NCBI RefSeq assembly: GCF_009756665.1
Contig: NZ_CP037953.1
Coordinates: forward strand, 3,906,001-3,970,000
Direction of reading: 5' to 3'
DNA length: 64,000 nt
Source of the DNA: Permianibacter aggregans
GTDB taxonomy: Bacteria > Pseudomonadota > Gammaproteobacteria > Enterobacterales > Permianibacteraceae
The translations under genes were made by a program, and so were the position numbers. Numbering within the stretch: the first letter of the stretch is position 1; each line of letters opens with the position of its first letter. Below, piece after piece: positions 26,018 to 33,901 of the stretch. The notes beneath the pieces are model-generated. The model ran no database searches, was not told where the DNA came from, and was given only the letters and a program-made list of their open reading frames with translations.

Positions 26018-26471
26018 ACGCAAACGTCGCCTGTGGATTGTTGTCGGCAGCATTGTCGCGTTGAGTCTCGGCATCACGCTGGTGCTGTATGCGATGCGCC
26101 AGAACATCAATTATTTTTATACGCCGACGCAAATCTGGAGTGGCGAAGCGCCGAAAGAGCGCACGGTCAACACCGGCGGCATGGTCGTCAATGGCAGCGT
26201 CAAGCGCGACCCGGAAAGCTTGAAAGTGCAGTTCGTGCTGACCGATACCGACAAGGACGTAACTGTTTTTTACGAAGGCATCTTGCCGGATCTGTTCCGC
26301 GAAGGGCAGGGCATTATCGCGATTGGCAAAATCACGCCGGACAACACCGTGCAGGCGACGCAAATTCTTGCCAAGCACGATGAGAACTACATGGCGCCCG
26401 AAGTGAAAGATGCAATAGAGCAGGCGGAAAAGCGGGCCCGTGAGAAAAACGCGGCAGGAGCAGGCGGATGA
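26007..26471 (+). CDS. ccmE: Cytochrome c maturation heme chaperone CcmE
   Basis: 154 residues. A short cytoplasmic basic tail (MHPERKRRLW) and one membrane helix (about 10-29) precede a periplasmic OB-fold domain. The covalent heme-binding histidine is His124 in the motif LAKHDENYMAPEV, with the conserved Tyr128. CcmE receives heme from CcmC and delivers it to CcmF. It overlaps ccmD by 11 bp and ccmF by 4 bp. The Glu/Lys/Ala-rich C-terminus is normal for the family. Confidence 0.97.
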   Translation: MHPERKRRLWIVVGSIVALSLGITLVLYAMRQNINYFYTPTQIWSGEAPKERTVNTGGMVVNGSVKRDPESLKVQFVLTDTDKDVTVFYEGILPDLFREGQGIIAIGKITPDNTVQATQILAKHDENYMAPEVKDAIEQAEKRAREKNAAGAGG

Positions 26472-28444
26472 TTATCGAGTTCGGTCATTTTGCGCTGATT
26501 CTGGCGCTGCTGGTCGCGCTGGTGCTGGCTGTCGTGCCGATGGCCGGCTCCTACACCGGTCAGCGGCAATGGATGGCGATGGCAAAACCAGCATCCAGTG
26601 TGTTGTTCTATCTGGTGCTGATCAGTTTTTGTTGTTTGACCTGGGCCTTCATTCAGAACGATTTCACCGTCGCTTATGTTGCCCAGAACTCCAATTCCCG
26701 TTTGCCGATTTACTATCGGATTTCTGCGGTGTGGGGCGCGCATGAAGGTTCACTGCTGCTCTGGGTATTGATCCTGACTTTCTGGAGTTATCTGGTCGCC
26801 TGTCGCAGTCGACATCTGCCGTTGCTGCTCAGCTCCCGGGTGTTGTCGATTCTTGGCTTGATTTCCATTGGCTTTCTGGCATTCACGCTGTTCACCTCGA
26901 ATCCGTTTGAGCGCACCTTGCCGATGTTCCCGGTCGATGGTCGCGACTTGAATCCGCTTTTGCAGGATTTCGGTTTGATCGTGCATCCGCCGATGCTGTA
27001 CATGGGCTATGTCGGTTTTTCTGTCGCGTTTGCCTTTGCCATTGCCGCGTTGCTAGAAGGCAAACTCGATAGCGCCTGGGCACGTTGGGCACGACCCTGG
27101 ACATTGGCGGCCTGGGTCTTTTTAACCGCCGGTATTGCACTTGGGTCCTGGTGGGCGTATTACGAACTCGGCTGGGGCGGCTGGTGGTTCTGGGATCCGG
27201 TTGAAAATGCGTCGTTCATGCCATGGTTGGTTGGCACCGCGCTGCTGCATTCGCTGGCGGTTTCCGACAAGCGTGGCAACTTCAAAGCCTGGACTGTGTT
27301 GTTGTCGATCAGTGCTTTCAGTTTGAGTTTGCTGGGTACTTTCCTGGTGCGTTCTGGCGTGTTGACGTCGGTGCACGCTTTCGCCACCGACCCGGAACGC
27401 GGCCTGTTCATTCTGATCTTCTTGCTGATCGTCATCGGCGGCAGCTTGAGTTTGTTTGCGGCGAAATCCAGCCGGCTGACCCAGCGTGCCGACGCCGACT
27501 GGTATTCAAAAGATACGGCGCTGCTATTGAACAATGTGCTGTTATCCGTCACGGCGCTGGTCGTCTTGATTGGCACGCTGCAACCGCTGGTCAACGATGC
27601 ATTGAACCTCGGCAAAATCTCGGTCGGCCCGCCATATTTCGATTTGATGTTCAGCGTATTCATGCTGCCTTTGTTGGTATTGGTCGGCATTGGTCCGATG
27701 TTGCGTTGGCGCAAGGATGATTGGCAACAACACCGCAACGTGATCGCGGCGCAATTTATCATCGCTCTCGGTTTAACCGCGTTGATTCTGCTGTTGCTGA
27801 ACAAAGTTCAAACCTCGGTGGTTGTCGGTTTGTTCCTGGCGCTGTGGTTACTGGGCGGCTTGGTTCGTGATTGGGCGCAACGCCTGAAAAATCGGCCATC
27901 GCTGGTTACCGGTATCGCGCAATTGCCGCGTGCTTTCGTTGGCATGTCGCTGGCGCATTTGGGCCTTGCCGTATCGCTACTTGGCATCGTCGTGACCAAC
28001 GCATTCAGCGTCGAACGCGATATCCGGATGGCGCCGGGACAAACGGTTGAAGTCGGTGATTATCAGTTCAAGCTGCAGCGTCTGCGTGAACTGGAAGGGC
28101 CGAACTACCATTCGACCCGGGCGATTATCGAAGTGCGCGATCAAGGTCATGTGGTGACGATGTTACGGCCGGAAAAGCGCACTTACATGGCGTCACGTTC
28201 GACAATGACCGAAGCCTCGATCAACCCGGGCCTGACCCGTGACTTATACGTCGCGCTTGGTGAGCCACTCGATGGCGATGCCTGGGCCGTGCGAGTCTAT
28301 TACAAGCCCTTCGTCCGTTGGATTTGGTTTGGTGCGGTGTTCATGGTGATTGGCGGCATTCTGGCCGGTACCGATCGCCGTTATCGCGCCCAAGTCGCCG
28401 AGCAAAAAGCGAAAGCGCTCAGTGGTCAGGAGCTCGGCGCATGA
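26468..28444 (+). CDS. ccmF: Cytochrome c heme lyase subunit CcmF
   Basis: 658 residues, full length. About fourteen membrane helices are predicted. The WWD heme-binding motif is GWGGWWFWDPVENASFMPWL, and the histidines of PPMLYMGYVG-flanking loops (VHPPML) and ALLHSLAVS are as in family members. CcmF ligates heme from CcmE to the CxxCH of apocytochrome c together with CcmH and CcmI. The start overlaps the ccmE stop (ATGA) and the end overlaps ccmG by 4 bp. Confidence 0.97.
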   Translation: MIIEFGHFALILALLVALVLAVVPMAGSYTGQRQWMAMAKPASSVLFYLVLISFCCLTWAFIQNDFTVAYVAQNSNSRLPIYYRISAVWGAHEGSLLLWVLILTFWSYLVACRSRHLPLLLSSRVLSILGLISIGFLAFTLFTSNPFERTLPMFPVDGRDLNPLLQDFGLIVHPPMLYMGYVGFSVAFAFAIAALLEGKLDSAWARWARPWTLAAWVFLTAGIALGSWWAYYELGWGGWWFWDPVENASFMPWLVGTALLHSLAVSDKRGNFKAWTVLLSISAFSLSLLGTFLVRSGVLTSVHAFATDPERGLFILIFLLIVIGGSLSLFAAKSSRLTQRADADWYSKDTALLLNNVLLSVTALVVLIGTLQPLVNDALNLGKISVGPPYFDLMFSVFMLPLLVLVGIGPMLRWRKDDWQQHRNVIAAQFIIALGLTALILLLLNKVQTSVVVGLFLALWLLGGLVRDWAQRLKNRPSLVTGIAQLPRAFVGMSLAHLGLAVSLLGIVVTNAFSVERDIRMAPGQTVEVGDYQFKLQRLRELEGPNYHSTRAIIEVRDQGHVVTMLRPEKRTYMASRSTMTEASINPGLTRDLYVALGEPLDGDAWAVRVYYKPFVRWIWFGAVFMVIGGILAGTDRRYRAQVAEQKAKALSGQELGA

Positions 28445-28989
28445 GCAAGAAAGGCATTCCGTGGATCAGCGCCATTCCGCTGGCATTGTTTTTGATTCTG
28501 GCCTTGTTCCTGTTGCGTGGTCTGTACATGGACCCGCGCGAATTGCCGTCGGCGCTGGAAGACAAACCCTTACCGGAATTCGCGCTACCGGTTCTGCAGC
28601 AGCCGGACCGCATCGTCAGCAAACAGGATTTGCTCGGCAAACCGTTTCTGATCAATATCTGGGCAACCTGGTGTCCGACTTGCTATGTTGAGCATCCTTA
28701 CCTGCACACGCTAGCGAAAGAAAAAGGCGTGCGTATCATCGGCTTGAATTACAAGGATGAGCGCGAAAAGGCGCTCAATTATCTCGACAAACTTGGTGAC
28801 CCTTATGAGCTGGTGCTGGTCGATCAAAAAGGTCGGCTCGGTATCGATCTCGGTGTTTACGGTGCGCCGGAAACCTTTCTGGTTTCTGCCGATGGCGTGA
28901 TTTTGCATCGTCATGCCGGCGACATGAATGAGCGGGTCTGGCAAAAAGAATTTCTGCCACGACTGCAGCCGCAAGGAGCCACTCCATGA
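28441..28989 (+). CDS. ccmG: Periplasmic thiol:disulfide oxidoreductase CcmG/DsbE
   Basis: 182 residues from ATG 28441, chosen because it overlaps the ccmF stop and gives the family start (MSKKGIPWISAIPLALF); the frame is open further upstream inside ccmF. An N-terminal membrane anchor (about 8-28) is followed by a thioredoxin fold with the active site WATWCPTCYVEHP, the WCPTC form typical of CcmG, and the cis-Pro region YGAPETFLVS. It keeps apocytochrome and CcmH cysteines reduced for heme attachment. Confidence 0.95.
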   Translation: MSKKGIPWISAIPLALFLILALFLLRGLYMDPRELPSALEDKPLPEFALPVLQQPDRIVSKQDLLGKPFLINIWATWCPTCYVEHPYLHTLAKEKGVRIIGLNYKDEREKALNYLDKLGDPYELVLVDQKGRLGIDLGVYGAPETFLVSADGVILHRHAGDMNERVWQKEFLPRLQPQGATP

Positions 28990-29456
28990 TTCTGCGTTGG
29001 TTTTTGATGCTTGCCTTGCTGCTTGGTGGTGGCAGTGCGCTCGCTGATATCGACGTCTATCCATTTGAGGACCCGAAACAGGAAGAGCGTTTCCGCCGTT
29101 TGATTGAAGAGTTTCGTTGTCCGAAGTGCCAGAACCAAACCTTGTCCGATTCCAACGCGCCTTTGGCCAAGGATTTGCGCGAGCTGATTTACGAACAAAT
29201 CCAGGCCGGTAAAACCGATGCTGAAATTGCTGCCTTTCTGCAGCAGCGCTACGGCGATTTCGTACTCTATAACCCGCCGCTGAAAGCCAATACGGCCTTG
29301 TTGTGGTTCGGGCCGTTTATCGCGTTGCTGCTGGTGTTGGTTTTCTTGATTCGACGCAAAATGGCGCGGGCAAAAGAATCGCCATCGGTGTTGACGCCGG
29401 AAGAACAGGCGCGTCTGCAAACCTTGCTGAACGAACAGAATAAGGACAAGGCATGA
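28986..29456 (+). CDS. ccmH: Cytochrome c maturation protein CcmH (N-terminal domain type)
   Basis: 156 residues. A signal peptide (about 1-20, ending GSALA) is followed by a three-helix periplasmic domain with the redox motif FRCPKCQNQTLSDSNAPLA (the LRCxxCQ signature) and a C-terminal membrane helix (about 97-118). It resembles the short CcmH of pseudomonads, with the TPR half encoded separately as ccmI, rather than the fused Escherichia coli form. It overlaps ccmG and ccmI by 4 bp each. Confidence 0.95.
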   Translation: MILRWFLMLALLLGGGSALADIDVYPFEDPKQEERFRRLIEEFRCPKCQNQTLSDSNAPLAKDLRELIYEQIQAGKTDAEIAAFLQQRYGDFVLYNPPLKANTALLWFGPFIALLLVLVFLIRRKMARAKESPSVLTPEEQARLQTLLNEQNKDKA

Positions 29457-30676
29457 ATACGTTTTTGCTGGCGGCGGCGCTGTTATTGCTGCTGGTATTG
29501 TTGCGCTTGTGGTGGACACTGTGGCGTCAGCCTCCAGCCGAACGGCAGGTGGAAATTGATGCCAACAAGGCCTTGTATCAGGAGCGTGCCGCCGAAATCG
29601 AACGGCAATTCAAAGCCGGTGAAATTGCGGCCGATGACAAAGCCATTCTTGATGCCGAGAACGCCCGTCGTTTATTAGCCGAAGCCGATCAAAGCCATGC
29701 GGCGGCGAACACGCACAGCAAGCGCAATACGATTTTGGTGCTGGCCATGGCCTTGTTGCTGCCGTTGCTAGCAGGTGTCCTGTACAGCCAGATTGGTGCC
29801 TATCGCGAAGTGCAGCATTGGCAAAATCTGAATGCTGCCGATATGCAGCACGGCGAAAGCAATATGCGTGACGCGTTGTTGCTGTTACGCACTCGCCTGC
29901 ATCAGGACCCGGACGATGTCGAAGGATGGTACATGCTTGGTCGTTCCTACATGAGCCTGAACCGGCCACAGGAAGCGATGCAGGCGTTTGCCAATGCCTA
30001 TCGCATCGATCGACAGGAACCGGACTACGTGGTCGCTTATGCGCAATCCATGCGTATGGCTGATCCGGAAGGCAGCCTTGAACAAGTGGATCGCTTGTTG
30101 GCGGAAGCCTTGCACCTGCAGCCGGAACACGAAGGCGCGAGAATTTTGTCAGCCTACCGAGCGTTGGAGCGTGGCGAGTATCAGCAAGCGATCAATTCGT
30201 TTCGTTGGTTACGTGAACGTCATCAACAGGACAGCAGTGCCACCCAGGCTATCGATCAGTTGATTGCGGAAGCGGAACAAAAACTCAAGGCTGAAACCGC
30301 TCCGGCAAATACCAGCGAACCAGCCGCTACGGCCAACGCCATTGAAGTGCGTGTGGAGTTGGCACCTGAACTGCAGGAAAAGTTGCCGCGCGCTGGTCGG
30401 GTATTTGTTTATGCCAAAGCCGAGCAGGGGCCACCGATGCCGTTAGCGGTCGCGGTGGTGGAACCGTCATCGTTGCCGACCACAGTGACGTTATCGGATC
30501 AGAACGCGATGAACCCGGCGTTCAAACTTTCTGATCATCAGCGCGTGCAATTGATTGCCAGGGTTTCGGCCAGCGGTAAAGTTGAACCCGCGGCTGGAGA
30601 TCTGCAAGGCGATTCGCAAGCGTTTGACTGGCGCCAGGCACCGAAACAAACCTTGGTGATCAACCGCTCGCTATAA
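29453..30676 (+). CDS. ccmI: Cytochrome c maturation TPR protein CcmI
   Basis: 407 residues. Two N-terminal membrane helices (about 3-22 and 93-113) flank a cytoplasmic segment. They are followed by a periplasmic TPR domain (GWYMLGRSYMSLNRPQEAMQ and the next two repeats to about residue 260), and a C-terminal beta-rich domain with VFVYAKAEQGPPMPLAV and the closing DWRQAPKQTLVINRSL, as in Pseudomonas CcmI. It binds the C-terminus of apocytochrome c and presents it to CcmFH. It is the last gene of the operon; a hairpin with a weak T tract follows at 30707. Confidence 0.95.
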   Translation: MNTFLLAAALLLLLVLLRLWWTLWRQPPAERQVEIDANKALYQERAAEIERQFKAGEIAADDKAILDAENARRLLAEADQSHAAANTHSKRNTILVLAMALLLPLLAGVLYSQIGAYREVQHWQNLNAADMQHGESNMRDALLLLRTRLHQDPDDVEGWYMLGRSYMSLNRPQEAMQAFANAYRIDRQEPDYVVAYAQSMRMADPEGSLEQVDRLLAEALHLQPEHEGARILSAYRALERGEYQQAINSFRWLRERHQQDSSATQAIDQLIAEAEQKLKAETAPANTSEPAATANAIEVRVELAPELQEKLPRAGRVFVYAKAEQGPPMPLAVAVVEPSSLPTTVTLSDQNAMNPAFKLSDHQRVQLIARVSASGKVEPAAGDLQGDSQAFDWRQAPKQTLVINRSL

Positions 30677-30706
30677 CCGCCGCTTCTTTGCCATCGTTTT
30701 GTCATA

Positions 30707-30734
30707 CACAGCGGATCGATACTGGTCCGCTGTG
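30707..30734 (+). terminator. Hairpin after ccmI, possible weak terminator
   Basis: CACAGCGGA (30707-30715) pairs with TCCGCTGTG (30726-30734) around a 10-nt loop. It is followed by CAAATCTTTCC, so the T tract is poor. It is the only terminator-like structure between ccmI and the next gene. Confidence 0.5.
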
Positions 30735-30786
30735 CAAATCTTTCCTGTCATTCCTCCCGTATCAAGTCTCGACGGCAGCTCAAACG

Positions 30787-30805
30787 TGAAAATGTCACAT
30801 TTTCA
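30787..30805. promoter_or_regulatory. Perfect 19-bp palindrome, operator candidate for the bufferin operon
   Basis: TGAAAATGT-C-ACATTTTCA is a perfect 9-bp inverted repeat around one base, 274 bp before the precursor start. Its symmetry and AT-rich arms suit a dimeric repressor or activator. It does not match the Fur, PhoB or LexA consensus. The bound protein is unknown. Confidence 0.5.
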
Positions 30806-30929
30806 GGCTGAACTCTGCAGCAATTAACGCTGAACGCCGGGCATATCATCGCTTGGCGTGCTCCATTGGTCGTATCGGTGGCACGCTTCGGCTGAATCCC
30901 GTAACCGTTTCCTGCTATGGTGTAACAGT

Positions 30930-30963
30930 TGCCGTCGGCCACACTCTAATGTGGCGAACGGCA
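30930..30963 (+). promoter_or_regulatory. Interrupted 12-bp hairpin in the bufferin leader
   Basis: TGCCGT (30930-30935) pairs with ACGGCA (30958-30963), and GCCACA (30938-30943) with TGTGGC (30950-30955), leaving a 2x2 internal loop and a CTCTAA apical loop. No T tract follows, so it is not a standard terminator. It could be a leader structure or an inverted-repeat binding site. Confidence 0.4.
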
Positions 30964-31078
30964 TACTTGTACGCACTGTCGTATGGCAGTGAGGCAACCC
31001 AAACGGCCTCTGCACGTTTCGGGCTCTCGTTGTACCCGTGGCCGGATTCACTTAATCAATCTTTCAGGAGATGAAGCA

Positions 31079-31501
31079 ATGAACAAGACCCGCAAACTGA
31101 CAACGCTTATTGGCGCTTCGGTCGTCGCCTCACTGGCTGCTGCTCAAGTCAGCGCTGATAGCACGCTGTTTGGTTACAACGATCTGAGCAGTGGCTACAA
31201 CCTCGCGTTGCTCGAAGGTGAAAAAGAAAAAGGCAAAGAAGGCAAATGCGGCGAAGGTAAATGTGGCGAAGACAAGGACAAAAAAGGCAAGGAAGGCAAA
31301 TGCGGCGAAGGTAAATGTGGTGAAGGAAAAGACAAGAAAGGCAAGGAAGGCAAGTGCGGCGAAGGTAAGTGTGGTGAAGGAAAAGACAAGAAAGGCAAGG
31401 AAGGCAAGTGCGGTGAAGGCAAGTGCGGCGAAGGCAAAGACAAGAAAGAAAAAGGTAAAGAAGGCAAGTGCGGCGAAGGCAAATGCGGTGGCCTGAGCTA
31501 A
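31079..31501 (+). CDS. hvfA: Bufferin/HvfA-type RiPP precursor with ten EGKCG motifs
   Basis: 140 residues from ATG 31079, with CAGGAG 8 bp upstream; the frame is open upstream but only this ATG gives a signal peptide (about 1-26, ending AAAQVSA). A short segment, STLFGYNDLSSGYNLALLEG, resembles the leader/recognition part of bufferin precursors. From residue 51 the protein is five 18-residue repeats of the type KGKEGKCGEGKCGEGKDK, giving ten EGKCG motifs and ten Cys (57, 62, 75, 80, 93, 98, 111, 116, 131, 136). EGKCG cysteines in HvfA-type precursors are modified by the DUF692 enzyme encoded next door and the product is reported to bind copper. The extended repeat number is unusual. Confidence 0.88.
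   Translation: MNKTRKLTTLIGASVVASLAAAQVSADSTLFGYNDLSSGYNLALLEGEKEKGKEGKCGEGKCGEDKDKKGKEGKCGEGKCGEGKDKKGKEGKCGEGKCGEGKDKKGKEGKCGEGKCGEGKDKKEKGKEGKCGEGKCGGLS
31229..31498 (+). repeat. Five tandem 54-bp repeats inside the bufferin precursor gene
   Basis: Units start at 31229, 31283, 31337, 31391 and 31445. Each encodes two EGKCG motifs. The middle units are nearly identical in DNA, differing mainly at third positions such as AAA/AAG and GGC/GGT; the first has GAC for GGA (Asp in place of Gly) and the last is altered at both ends. The pattern suggests recent in-frame duplication. Confidence 0.95.
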
Positions 31502-31542
31502 GGCTCGCTGATTTACCTTTCACTGTTTGTTAAGGAACCGCC

Positions 31543-32394
31543 ATGCGTTATCCGGTTGAAGGCGTCGGCTTAGGATTGCGCCGCGAGCTGATGCAGCCGC
31601 TGCGTGATGAACCCATTCCGGAAATCAGCTTTCTGGAAGTTGCGCCGGAAAACTGGATGCGCATGGGCGGGGCACTCGGTAAACGTTTTCGGGCGTTTAC
31701 CGAGCGTTACCCGTTTGTCTGTCATGGCCTGTCATTGTCGATAGGTAGTCCGGCACCGCTGGACGAAGCGTTTGTGCTGGAAGTGCGCACGTTTTTGCGC
31801 AGTCACAATATCCGCAAATATTCCGAACACTTGAGTTATTGCTCGGATCATGGTCATCTCTATGATCTGATGCCGATTCCGTTTACCGAAGAAGCCGTTG
31901 ATTATGTGGCGGCTCGTATTCGCCGGGTGCAGGATTTGCTCGGTCAGCGCATCGCGATCGAAAACGTCTCGTATTACGCTGCGCCAGGACAGGAAATGCC
32001 CGAGCTGGAATTTTTGTTGGCGGTGCTGAAAGCGGCTGATTGCGAGTTGCTGCTCGACGTCAACAATATCTACGTCAATAGCGTCAATCATCGCTATGAT
32101 GCGTTGGAATTTTTGCGCGGCTTGCAAGGCGCGCCGGTCAGCTATGTGCATATTGCCGGTCATTACGACGAGGCGCCCGATCTGCTGGTGGATACCCATG
32201 GCACCCAAGTCAAGCCATCGGTCTGGGCTTTGCTCGAAGAAGCCTATCGCCTCTTTGGTGTCATGCCGACCTTGCTGGAACGCGATTTCAATATTCCGTC
32301 ATTACCGGAGCTTCAGCACGAGTTGCAGCAGATTGAGCAGCTACAGGAGCAGGCGCGTGAGTTTTCGCTACGCCAAACAGCAAGCGCAGGATGA
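31543..32394 (+). CDS. hvfB: DUF692 multinuclear non-heme iron oxygenase (MbnB/HvfB-like)
   Basis: 283 residues, 41 bp after the precursor, with AAGGA upstream. A TIM barrel with the family metal-ligand motifs in order: [12 protein letters not shown] (His), YSEHLSYC (Glu-His), IAIENVSYY (Glu-Asn), [11 protein letters not shown] (Asp-Asn), [10 protein letters not shown] (His-His), LVDTHGTQV (Asp-His) and LLERDFNIP (Glu). DUF692 enzymes use two or three irons and oxygen to modify Cys residues of ribosomal peptides, for example to oxazolone/thioamide in methanobactin or HvfA. With HvfC it is expected to modify the EGKCG cysteines of the preceding gene product. Confidence 0.93.
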
Positions 32395-33139
32395 GTCGCT
32401 GCCGCGCTTTCAGCGGCATCAATACGCGTTCACGGCCCATATGCGCGCGCCGGAGCTGGCGCCGGCACCGAGCGGTATCGAAGACCGTCGCTTGGCGGTC
32501 TACCGCGAGCTGCTGTTCAACAACGTCAAAAACTTTCTCGACAATTGCTTTCCGGTATTCAGCGAGTTGCTGGGTGAGCTCACGTGGCTGAATTTGTGCC
32601 GGCATTATTTTGCCGAGCACGCCGCGCAAAGTCCGCTGTTCAATGAAATCAATGCCGAGTTTGTCGAATACCTGGCCGAAAGCGATATCATCGAGCGCCT
32701 GTCGTTACCGCCATTCAGCAAAGAGTTGGCGCATTACGAGTGGATGGAGCTGGTGGCGTTGATCGTGCCGGAAAGTGTGCCGGACCTGACCGATACGACG
32801 CTGACCGAAACCTCACGACTTAGCGTGTCACCTGTGGCCTTTCCACTGGCTTATCAGTTTGATGTGCAACGCATCGGTGAAAGTTATCAGCCGGCACACG
32901 CTCCGGCTCAGCCGACGTTTCTGGTCGTTTACCGCAAAGCCGATGATGAGGTGCATTTTCTGCAGCTCAATGCCTTGAGTTTTCAGTTGCTGAATTGGCT
33001 GCAGGAACATCCACAGTCGGATCTCGCCGCCATTATTGCGCATTTGCAGAACTTGACGGGGCAGTCAGCGAAAACCCTGGAACAGGCGTTGACGCCGGTG
33101 CTGAATGACTGGCTGCAACGACATATCGTCCTCGCGTAG
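32357..33139 (+). CDS. hvfC: DUF2063 partner protein (HvfC/BufC-like)
   Basis: 260 residues when started at GTG 32357, with AGGAG 7 bp upstream; the frame is open to 32096 inside hvfB, but the earlier part has no family similarity. The N-terminal DUF2063 helical domain shows [15 protein letters not shown] and [28 protein letters not shown]. The C-terminal domain (about 150-260) is a winged-helix-like module that in related proteins recognises the precursor leader. It is the usual partner of DUF692 enzymes. It overlaps hvfB by 38 bp. No DoxX-type membrane gene, often fourth in these operons, follows. Confidence 0.85.
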
Positions 33140-33175
33140 AATAGCGACCCTTTCGTAACAAGGATTTTGTCGATC

Positions 33176-33901
33176 ATGGTTTTGGCGCGTTTGGCCATTG
33201 TGCTGTCGTTGCTGGTTTTGGCTGGTTGTGCGACGACCGGCACACACAAGGACGATCCTTACGAGGATTTCAACCGTTCGATGTATACCTTCAACAAAGG
33301 GCTCGACACGTATTTTCTCAAGCCGGTCGCCAAGGGCTATGACACGGTGACGCCAACGGTAGTCAGCGATCGAATTTCCGGTGTCTTTGACAATATCGAC
33401 GAAGTGCCGACATTGGCCAACAGCCTGCTGCAATGGAAATGGGGTTCGGTCGGCGTCACCTTTTCCCGCTTTGTCATCAATTCCACATTGGGATTGGGCG
33501 GTATGTTCGATCCGGCCTCCGCGATGGGGCTTGACCGTCGTGACGAAGATTTCGGTCAGACGCTGGCTGCCTGGGGCGCGCCACAGGGTGCATACCTGAT
33601 GCTGCCGTTTCTCGGGCCATCGACGATGCGTGATGTCTGGGGTAAACCGGTCGATGGTTACCTGTCGCCGATGCAGGAAATTGATCATGTGCGCACCCGC
33701 AATGCGGTCCGCGGTATGGACCTGATCGACACCCGCAAACGTTTGCTGGAACTGGACCCTTTGCTGGAAGAGGCGCTCGATGAATACGTATTTGTGCGTG
33801 ATGCCTATTTGCAGCGGAGAAACTACCTGATCCACGACGGTAATCCGCCGTTGCCGGAGCTGGAAGACGATTGCGATCCAATCGATGACGACTGCTACTA
33901 G
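33176..33901 (+). CDS. mlaA: MlaA (VacJ) family outer-membrane lipoprotein
   Basis: 241 residues from ATG 33176 with AGGA 11 bp upstream; a TTG at 33167 would add three residues. The lipobox LVLAGCATTG places the acylated Cys near residue 17. Family motifs follow: DPYEDFNRSMYTFNKGLD, NSLLQWKWGSVGVTFSRFVINSTLGLGGMFD (read in parts) and LPFLGPSTMRDVWG. MlaA sits in the outer membrane and removes surface phospholipids to the MlaC shuttle, keeping lipid asymmetry. The C-terminus is acidic (ELEDDCDPIDDDCY). Other mla genes are not in the window. Confidence 0.95.
   Translation: MVLARLAIVLSLLVLAGCATTGTHKDDPYEDFNRSMYTFNKGLDTYFLKPVAKGYDTVTPTVVSDRISGVFDNIDEVPTLANSLLQWKWGSVGVTFSRFVINSTLGLGGMFDPASAMGLDRRDEDFGQTLAAWGAPQGAYLMLPFLGPSTMRDVWGKPVDGYLSPMQEIDHVRTRNAVRGMDLIDTRKRLLELDPLLEEALDEYVFVRDAYLQRRNYLIHDGNPPLPELEDDCDPIDDDCY

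Follow-up and report, generated by a model that had tools for sequence, protein, structure and literature searches.

RiPP precursors with EGKCG repeats, each accompanied by an MNIO enzyme and a DUF2063 partner, have been described as fontiphorin FonABC (PMC12668002) and bulbicupramide MmrABC (PMC12538549). On co-expression, FonBC installs seven 5-thiooxazoles (PMC12668002) and MmrBC modifies all six Cys residues (PMC12538549), with a loss of 4 H per site in each case. Oxazolin (HvfABC of Haemophilus influenzae) carries six modified sites; in vitro, HvfBC modified on average about five of the six HvfA sites and favored the full-length precursor over a version free of the signal sequence (PMC13419390). 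The product group, once described as oxazolone/thioamide, is now assigned as 5-thiooxazole (PMC13419390, PMC13097082, PMC12668002), and the oxazolone/thioamide-type chemistry of the original prediction for the locus reported here is therefore out of date.

Precursors of the Buf_EGKCG/oxazolin class contain a variable number of two-EGKCG repeats, with up to 58 Cys residues (PMC12452194); a DoxX gene is frequent in this class but not obligatory. Whether or not copper was added, the Microbulbifer mmr proteins went undetected in proteomes, and that study hesitates to propose a copper-protective role (PMC12538549). A stochastic mode of copper binding, with aggregation, has been suggested for EGKCG peptides (PMC12668002). 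Copper buffering is the best-supported role for the class, though it is not established for all members.

We examined a 64,000-nucleotide stretch of the Permianibacter aggregans genome (C1:3906001-3970000), referred to below as the window, in which three genes very probably form a minimal captophorin/oxazolin (Buf_EGKCG) operon whose HvfBC proteins are predicted to make 5-thiooxazoles at ten sites on an exported periplasmic Cu(I) chelator. The operon is an unremarkable addition to a RiPP class already in the literature.

Organization of the operon

The genes are arranged in the order precursor, MNIO and DUF2063/HvfC (PME1) partner (Table 1). The expectation of an HvfA-type RiPP operon was borne out by scores above the cutoffs of NF050137, NF003818 and NF050145 for the three products, and the DUF692 enzyme and DUF2063 partner were confirmed together with their coordinates and the 38-bp overlap of the partner gene with the MNIO gene. 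Ribosome-binding sites resembling AGGA or GGAG were read by eye ahead of all three starts. A scan of positions 30600 to 33400 detected no sigma-70 promoter, against a mean of 1.8 in shuffled sequence, and a lone terminator-like site, which sits within the MNIO gene.

Table 1. Features of the RiPP operon, in window positions
Feature	Length	Coordinates	Strand	Evidence
HvfA/oxazolin-type (Buf_EGKCG) RiPP precursor	140 aa	31079..31501	+	NF050137, ORF reading, motif counts
Five EGKCGEGKCG pairs (ten predicted modification sites)		31238..31489	+	Motif reading, Tandem Repeats Finder
HvfB-family MNIO (PF05114, formerly DUF692) peptide-cysteine oxidase	283 aa	31543..32394	+	NF003818, PF05114, 3bww
HvfC-family partner (DUF2063 + NGO1945_C), GTG start		32357..33139	+	NF050145, PF09836, PF22106, 3dee

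The N terminus of the precursor, signal-peptide-like as judged by eye, resembles that of Buf_EGKCG/oxazolin type 1 systems (PMC12452194) and of the Lys-Cys EGKCG group of captophorins (PMC12668002, PMC13097082), with which the window also shares the presence of two EGKCG motifs per repeat and the order precursor-MNIO-DUF2063. The H. influenzae system has paired EGKCG cassettes like those of the window, where the HvfB and HvfC families were both over their cutoffs, but HvfA has six sites rather than ten (PMC13419390), and the window precursor scored 68.3 bits with the narrower HvfA equivalog model NF050188, under its cutoff of 95. FonABC has seven sites and MmrABC six, all reported to be modified on co-expression (PMC12668002, PMC12538549). 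Buf1 bufferins (DUF2282, with the founding member in Caulobacter; PMC12452194) are alike in the MNIO-DUF2063 system and the copper role but have a different precursor family. The window precursor had no match in Pfam, and the MNIO scored 261.1 bits with the model of the bufferin maturase BufB (NF050167), under the cutoff of 310, so the term bufferin does not apply in its strict Buf1/Buf2 sense.

A search for DoxX that covered PF07681 gave four matches in the genome, none of them inside the window. In this respect the window differs from the Buf_EGKCG class, which often has DoxX, and from the H. influenzae hvf operon, which has a DoxX-like gene (PMC13419390). Searches of the genome at an E value of 0.001 or better found a single EGKCG precursor gene and a single MNIO, with no second copy of either. 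A tblastn search of plasmids with the MNIO matched 353 of 72,556 records, all at less than 60% identity. Two entries in the mechanical ORF list, an out-of-frame ORF across the repeats (31191-31496) and an extension of the partner frame back to 32096 within the MNIO gene, both appear to be by-products of the genuine genes.

Precursor and its repeats

The precursor matched NF050137, the NCBIfam model of the HvfA-family repeat, in five stretches with a score of 108.6 bits (cutoff, 19.5). Every one of its 10 Cys residues lies within an EGKCG motif (10 motifs). EGKCGEGKCG pairs begin at residues 54, 72, 90, 108 and 128, giving spacings of 18, 18, 18 and 20; the units are near-identical and 18 residues long, except that the fourth carries two inserted residues and the last pair is followed by only a short tail. 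The count of ten Cys in EGKCG was thus upheld, while the description of five strict 18-residue repeats was not. The stated repeat length of Buf_EGKCG type 1 precursors is 17 residues (PMC12452194), in contrast to these spacings.

At the DNA level, Tandem Repeats Finder reported a period of 54 bp with 4.1 copies, 92% matches and a score of 335. Units 2 and 4 differ by eight synonymous codon changes and one nonsynonymous change, and the units in general differ mainly synonymously, which indicates that the repeats are selected coding sequence. A chance or DNA-level repeat was rejected on the basis of these synonymous differences.

The N terminus, judged by eye, has the basic start, hydrophobic stretch and A-x-A-like end of a signal peptide. 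AlphaFold2 modeling with the precursor and 14 homologues (15 rows) gave a mostly unstructured model with a mean pLDDT of 42.8. This low-confidence model contained a helix at residues 4 to 24 and no secondary structure in the repeats, and it did not reproduce the beta-helix described for a homologue of intermediate size.

MNIO enzyme and partner protein

The MNIO scored 430.4 bits with NF003818 (HvfB family, NCBIfam; cutoff, 360) and 341.5 bits with PF05114 (cutoff, 25). The partner scored 269.9 bits with NF050145 (HvfC family, NCBIfam; cutoff, 142) and was over the Pfam cutoffs for both PF09836 and PF22106. The best solved-structure matches by sequence were 3bww for the MNIO (6.3e-73) and 3dee for the partner (3.9e-16).

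An alignment of 83 MNIOs, consisting of the window enzyme and 82 relatives, contained invariant residues at H61, H96, E140, D172, N174, N175, H203, D217, H219 and E246. We take these ten residues, which were chosen from the conserved columns on the basis of known motifs, to be likely metal ligands. Replacement of N175, D242 or H244 in HvfB abolishes activity (PMC13419390); these positions may match the conserved N174/N175, D217 and H219 (the last two in the DTHG motif) of the window enzyme.

Number and spacing of EGKCG motifs in the family

Motif numbers were examined in two sets of loci, neither of which contained the window precursor. Set A comprised 80 loci from one contig search with the MNIO, the best 80 of at least 577 confirmed relatives. 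A precursor was called wherever an ORF contained two or more [ED][GA]KCG motifs, as was the case in 61 of the 80. Three of these were cut or mis-started (L038, L051 and L084), another, with 13 motifs, was an ORF ~2.4 kb upstream of the MNIO (L064), and where a locus had two such ORFs (L059), the one richer in exact EGKCG was counted. Among the 19 loci without such an ORF, 5 had the MNIO within 350 bases of a contig end and 3 (L073, L078 and L085) showed variant EGxCG-type precursors, while a crude look at ~1.3 kb upstream revealed no convincing precursor in the other 11. Set B was drawn from the 30 top-scoring matches of a search within the taxonomic order of the window (54 of 197 genomes matched), 28 of which were new loci; being picked by repeat-model score, it was biased upward, toward regular repeats.

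At least 10 EGKCG motifs were present in 8 of the 61 precursors of set A, from the best 80 of at least 577 relatives (median, 6; range, 2 to 14), and in 7 of 57 when L038, L051, L084 and L064 were excluded, with the same median and range. The proportion was 18 of 28 in the score-selected set B, from the taxonomic order of the window (median, 10; range, 4 to 16). A family comparison showing ten or more motifs to be usual had been named as grounds for refuting the original prediction, and the counts bear this out in part: ten is not the commonest count in the MNIO-selected sample, yet it is no rarity among those loci, and in the score-selected set B it is the median count. Ten EGKCG motifs is a high-normal number, within the usual range of the Buf_EGKCG family. 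In the 89 precursors, 16 residues was the most frequent distance between successive pairs (68 of the 188 spacings not exceeding 30 residues), and a distance of 18 occurred in 24 of the 188; a unit of 18 residues is therefore nothing unusual.

The number of motifs also differed between close relatives. A congener (G001, L016) with the same neighborhood has a precursor with 10 Cys residues and 5 exact EGKCG motifs, and a member of the same taxonomic family (G002, L017), also with this neighborhood, has 6 Cys residues and 6 motifs. These results indicated that the EGKCG number drifts at a common neighborhood.

Gene neighborhood

Upstream of the precursor lie ccmF (PF16327), a gene for a CcmG-like redoxin (PF08534), ccmH (PF03918) and ccmI (TIGR03142), and downstream of the operon lies mlaA (PF04333). 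The order ccmFGHI-hvfABC-mlaA (window 26468-33901) was common to the congener and two Kangiella-labelled loci (L060 and L089); in G002, the ccm part was present and the MlaA match was absent. Of the 80 MNIO loci (the best 80 of at least 577, including loci near contig ends), 15 had an MlaA relative in the retrieved flanking sequence. The ORF between the operon and MlaA was scanned in five of these 15; it was a porin-family gene in four (L054, L066, L071 and, on the opposite strand, L023) and DoxX in L083. The ccm/mlaA linkage is a conserved neighborhood in related lineages and by itself no proof of function.

Proposed mechanism and alternatives

By analogy with the described systems, the HvfC-like protein would bind the precursor by its leader before export and hand it to the HvfB-like diiron MNIO, which would convert the ten EGKCG Cys residues into 5-thiooxazoles with a loss of 4 H per Cys. 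Once exported by Sec, the modified peptide would act as a periplasmic Cu(I) chelator that buffers or sequesters the metal. Modification before Sec export is the natural reading, since HvfBC prefers the signal-bearing precursor. The suggestion of up to ten modified Cys residues is plausible, as relatives with six and seven sites were fully modified (PMC12538549, PMC12668002); given the in vitro average for HvfBC, ten out of ten is not to be assumed. A set number of metal ions per chain is unsupported and not readable from the motif count, because EGKCG peptides may take up copper in a stochastic, aggregating manner (PMC12668002).

The original prediction regarded the precursor as expanded. Ten sites do exceed the median of 6 in the MNIO-selected loci (61 precursors), and they outnumber both the five to eight found in Microbulbifer (PMC12538549) and the six on H. 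influenzae HvfA (PMC13419390), but the frequency of precursors with at least ten motifs in both sets, the 16 motifs reached in set B, the published maximum of 58 Cys residues (PMC12452194) and the drift between G001 and G002 make an unusual expansion with a qualitatively higher metal capacity highly improbable. An equation of ten motifs with expansion was rejected, as it is contradicted by the family counts. The mature product could consist of short, secreted, chalkophore-like peptides cut from the repeats instead of one long periplasmic chain. The Lys-rich units between the pairs look as though they might be cleavable, and the choice between a single chain and a digested EGKCG product is called unclear in PMC13097082; however, NCBIfam and Pfam identified no protease among the three operon genes, none is reported near mmr (PMC12538549), and we consider such processing unlikely.

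The position behind the ccm genes raised a further alternative, a role of the operon in stress of cytochrome c or of heme handling and not in bulk copper buffering. All four ccm genes are directly upstream in the window, and relatives of all four are upstream in G001, G002 and the two Kangiella-labelled loci. Such a neighborhood was nevertheless present in only 2 of the 80 named MNIO loci (the best 80 of at least 577, including loci near contig ends), a pattern suggestive of synteny within a single lineage, and ccmI and the precursor are 402 bp apart. A role of this kind is very unlikely. Equally doubtful is the proposal that ccmFGHI-hvfABC is a functional unit in the window lineage and Kangiella, in which the peptide would keep copper away from apocytochrome thiols or from heme handling in the periplasm. 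The preferred reading, a minimal three-gene Buf_EGKCG operon, gives a large RiPP class of recent characterization a further gammaproteobacterial-type example, of value chiefly for comparison: close relatives differ in site number at a common neighborhood, and a test of copper capacity versus repeat number is possible.

Leader motif and orphan precursors

The leader motif of the window precursor, FGYNDLSSGY, is a candidate recognition element. The pattern F-x3/4-[LMF]-x2/3-G-[YF] was present ahead of the first repeat in 58 of 61 precursors in set A and 24 of 28 in set B, after being relaxed upon inspection of the misses of a stricter version (66 of 89). A truncated FonA substrate, however, tolerated single alanine substitutions preceding the core (PMC13097082).

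Relatives of the MNIO and of HvfC were both matched in 82 of 84 loci, the exceptions being two loci with orphan EGKCG precursors (L015:5568-6005 in G001 and L018:6010-6366 in G002), which carry a similar leader motif. Neither 12-kb locus contained a match to the window MNIO or HvfC; G001 and G002 have three MNIO genes each, none of them within L015 or L018. Four loci from the same taxonomic order, in genomes of ~1.8 to 2.3 Mb (L099, L102, L103 and L121), encode EGKCG precursors with a signal-peptide-like start and without the F..DL..GY motif. In its place, these precursors have a Cys-containing stretch ahead of the repeats, possibly reflecting a different recognition mode.
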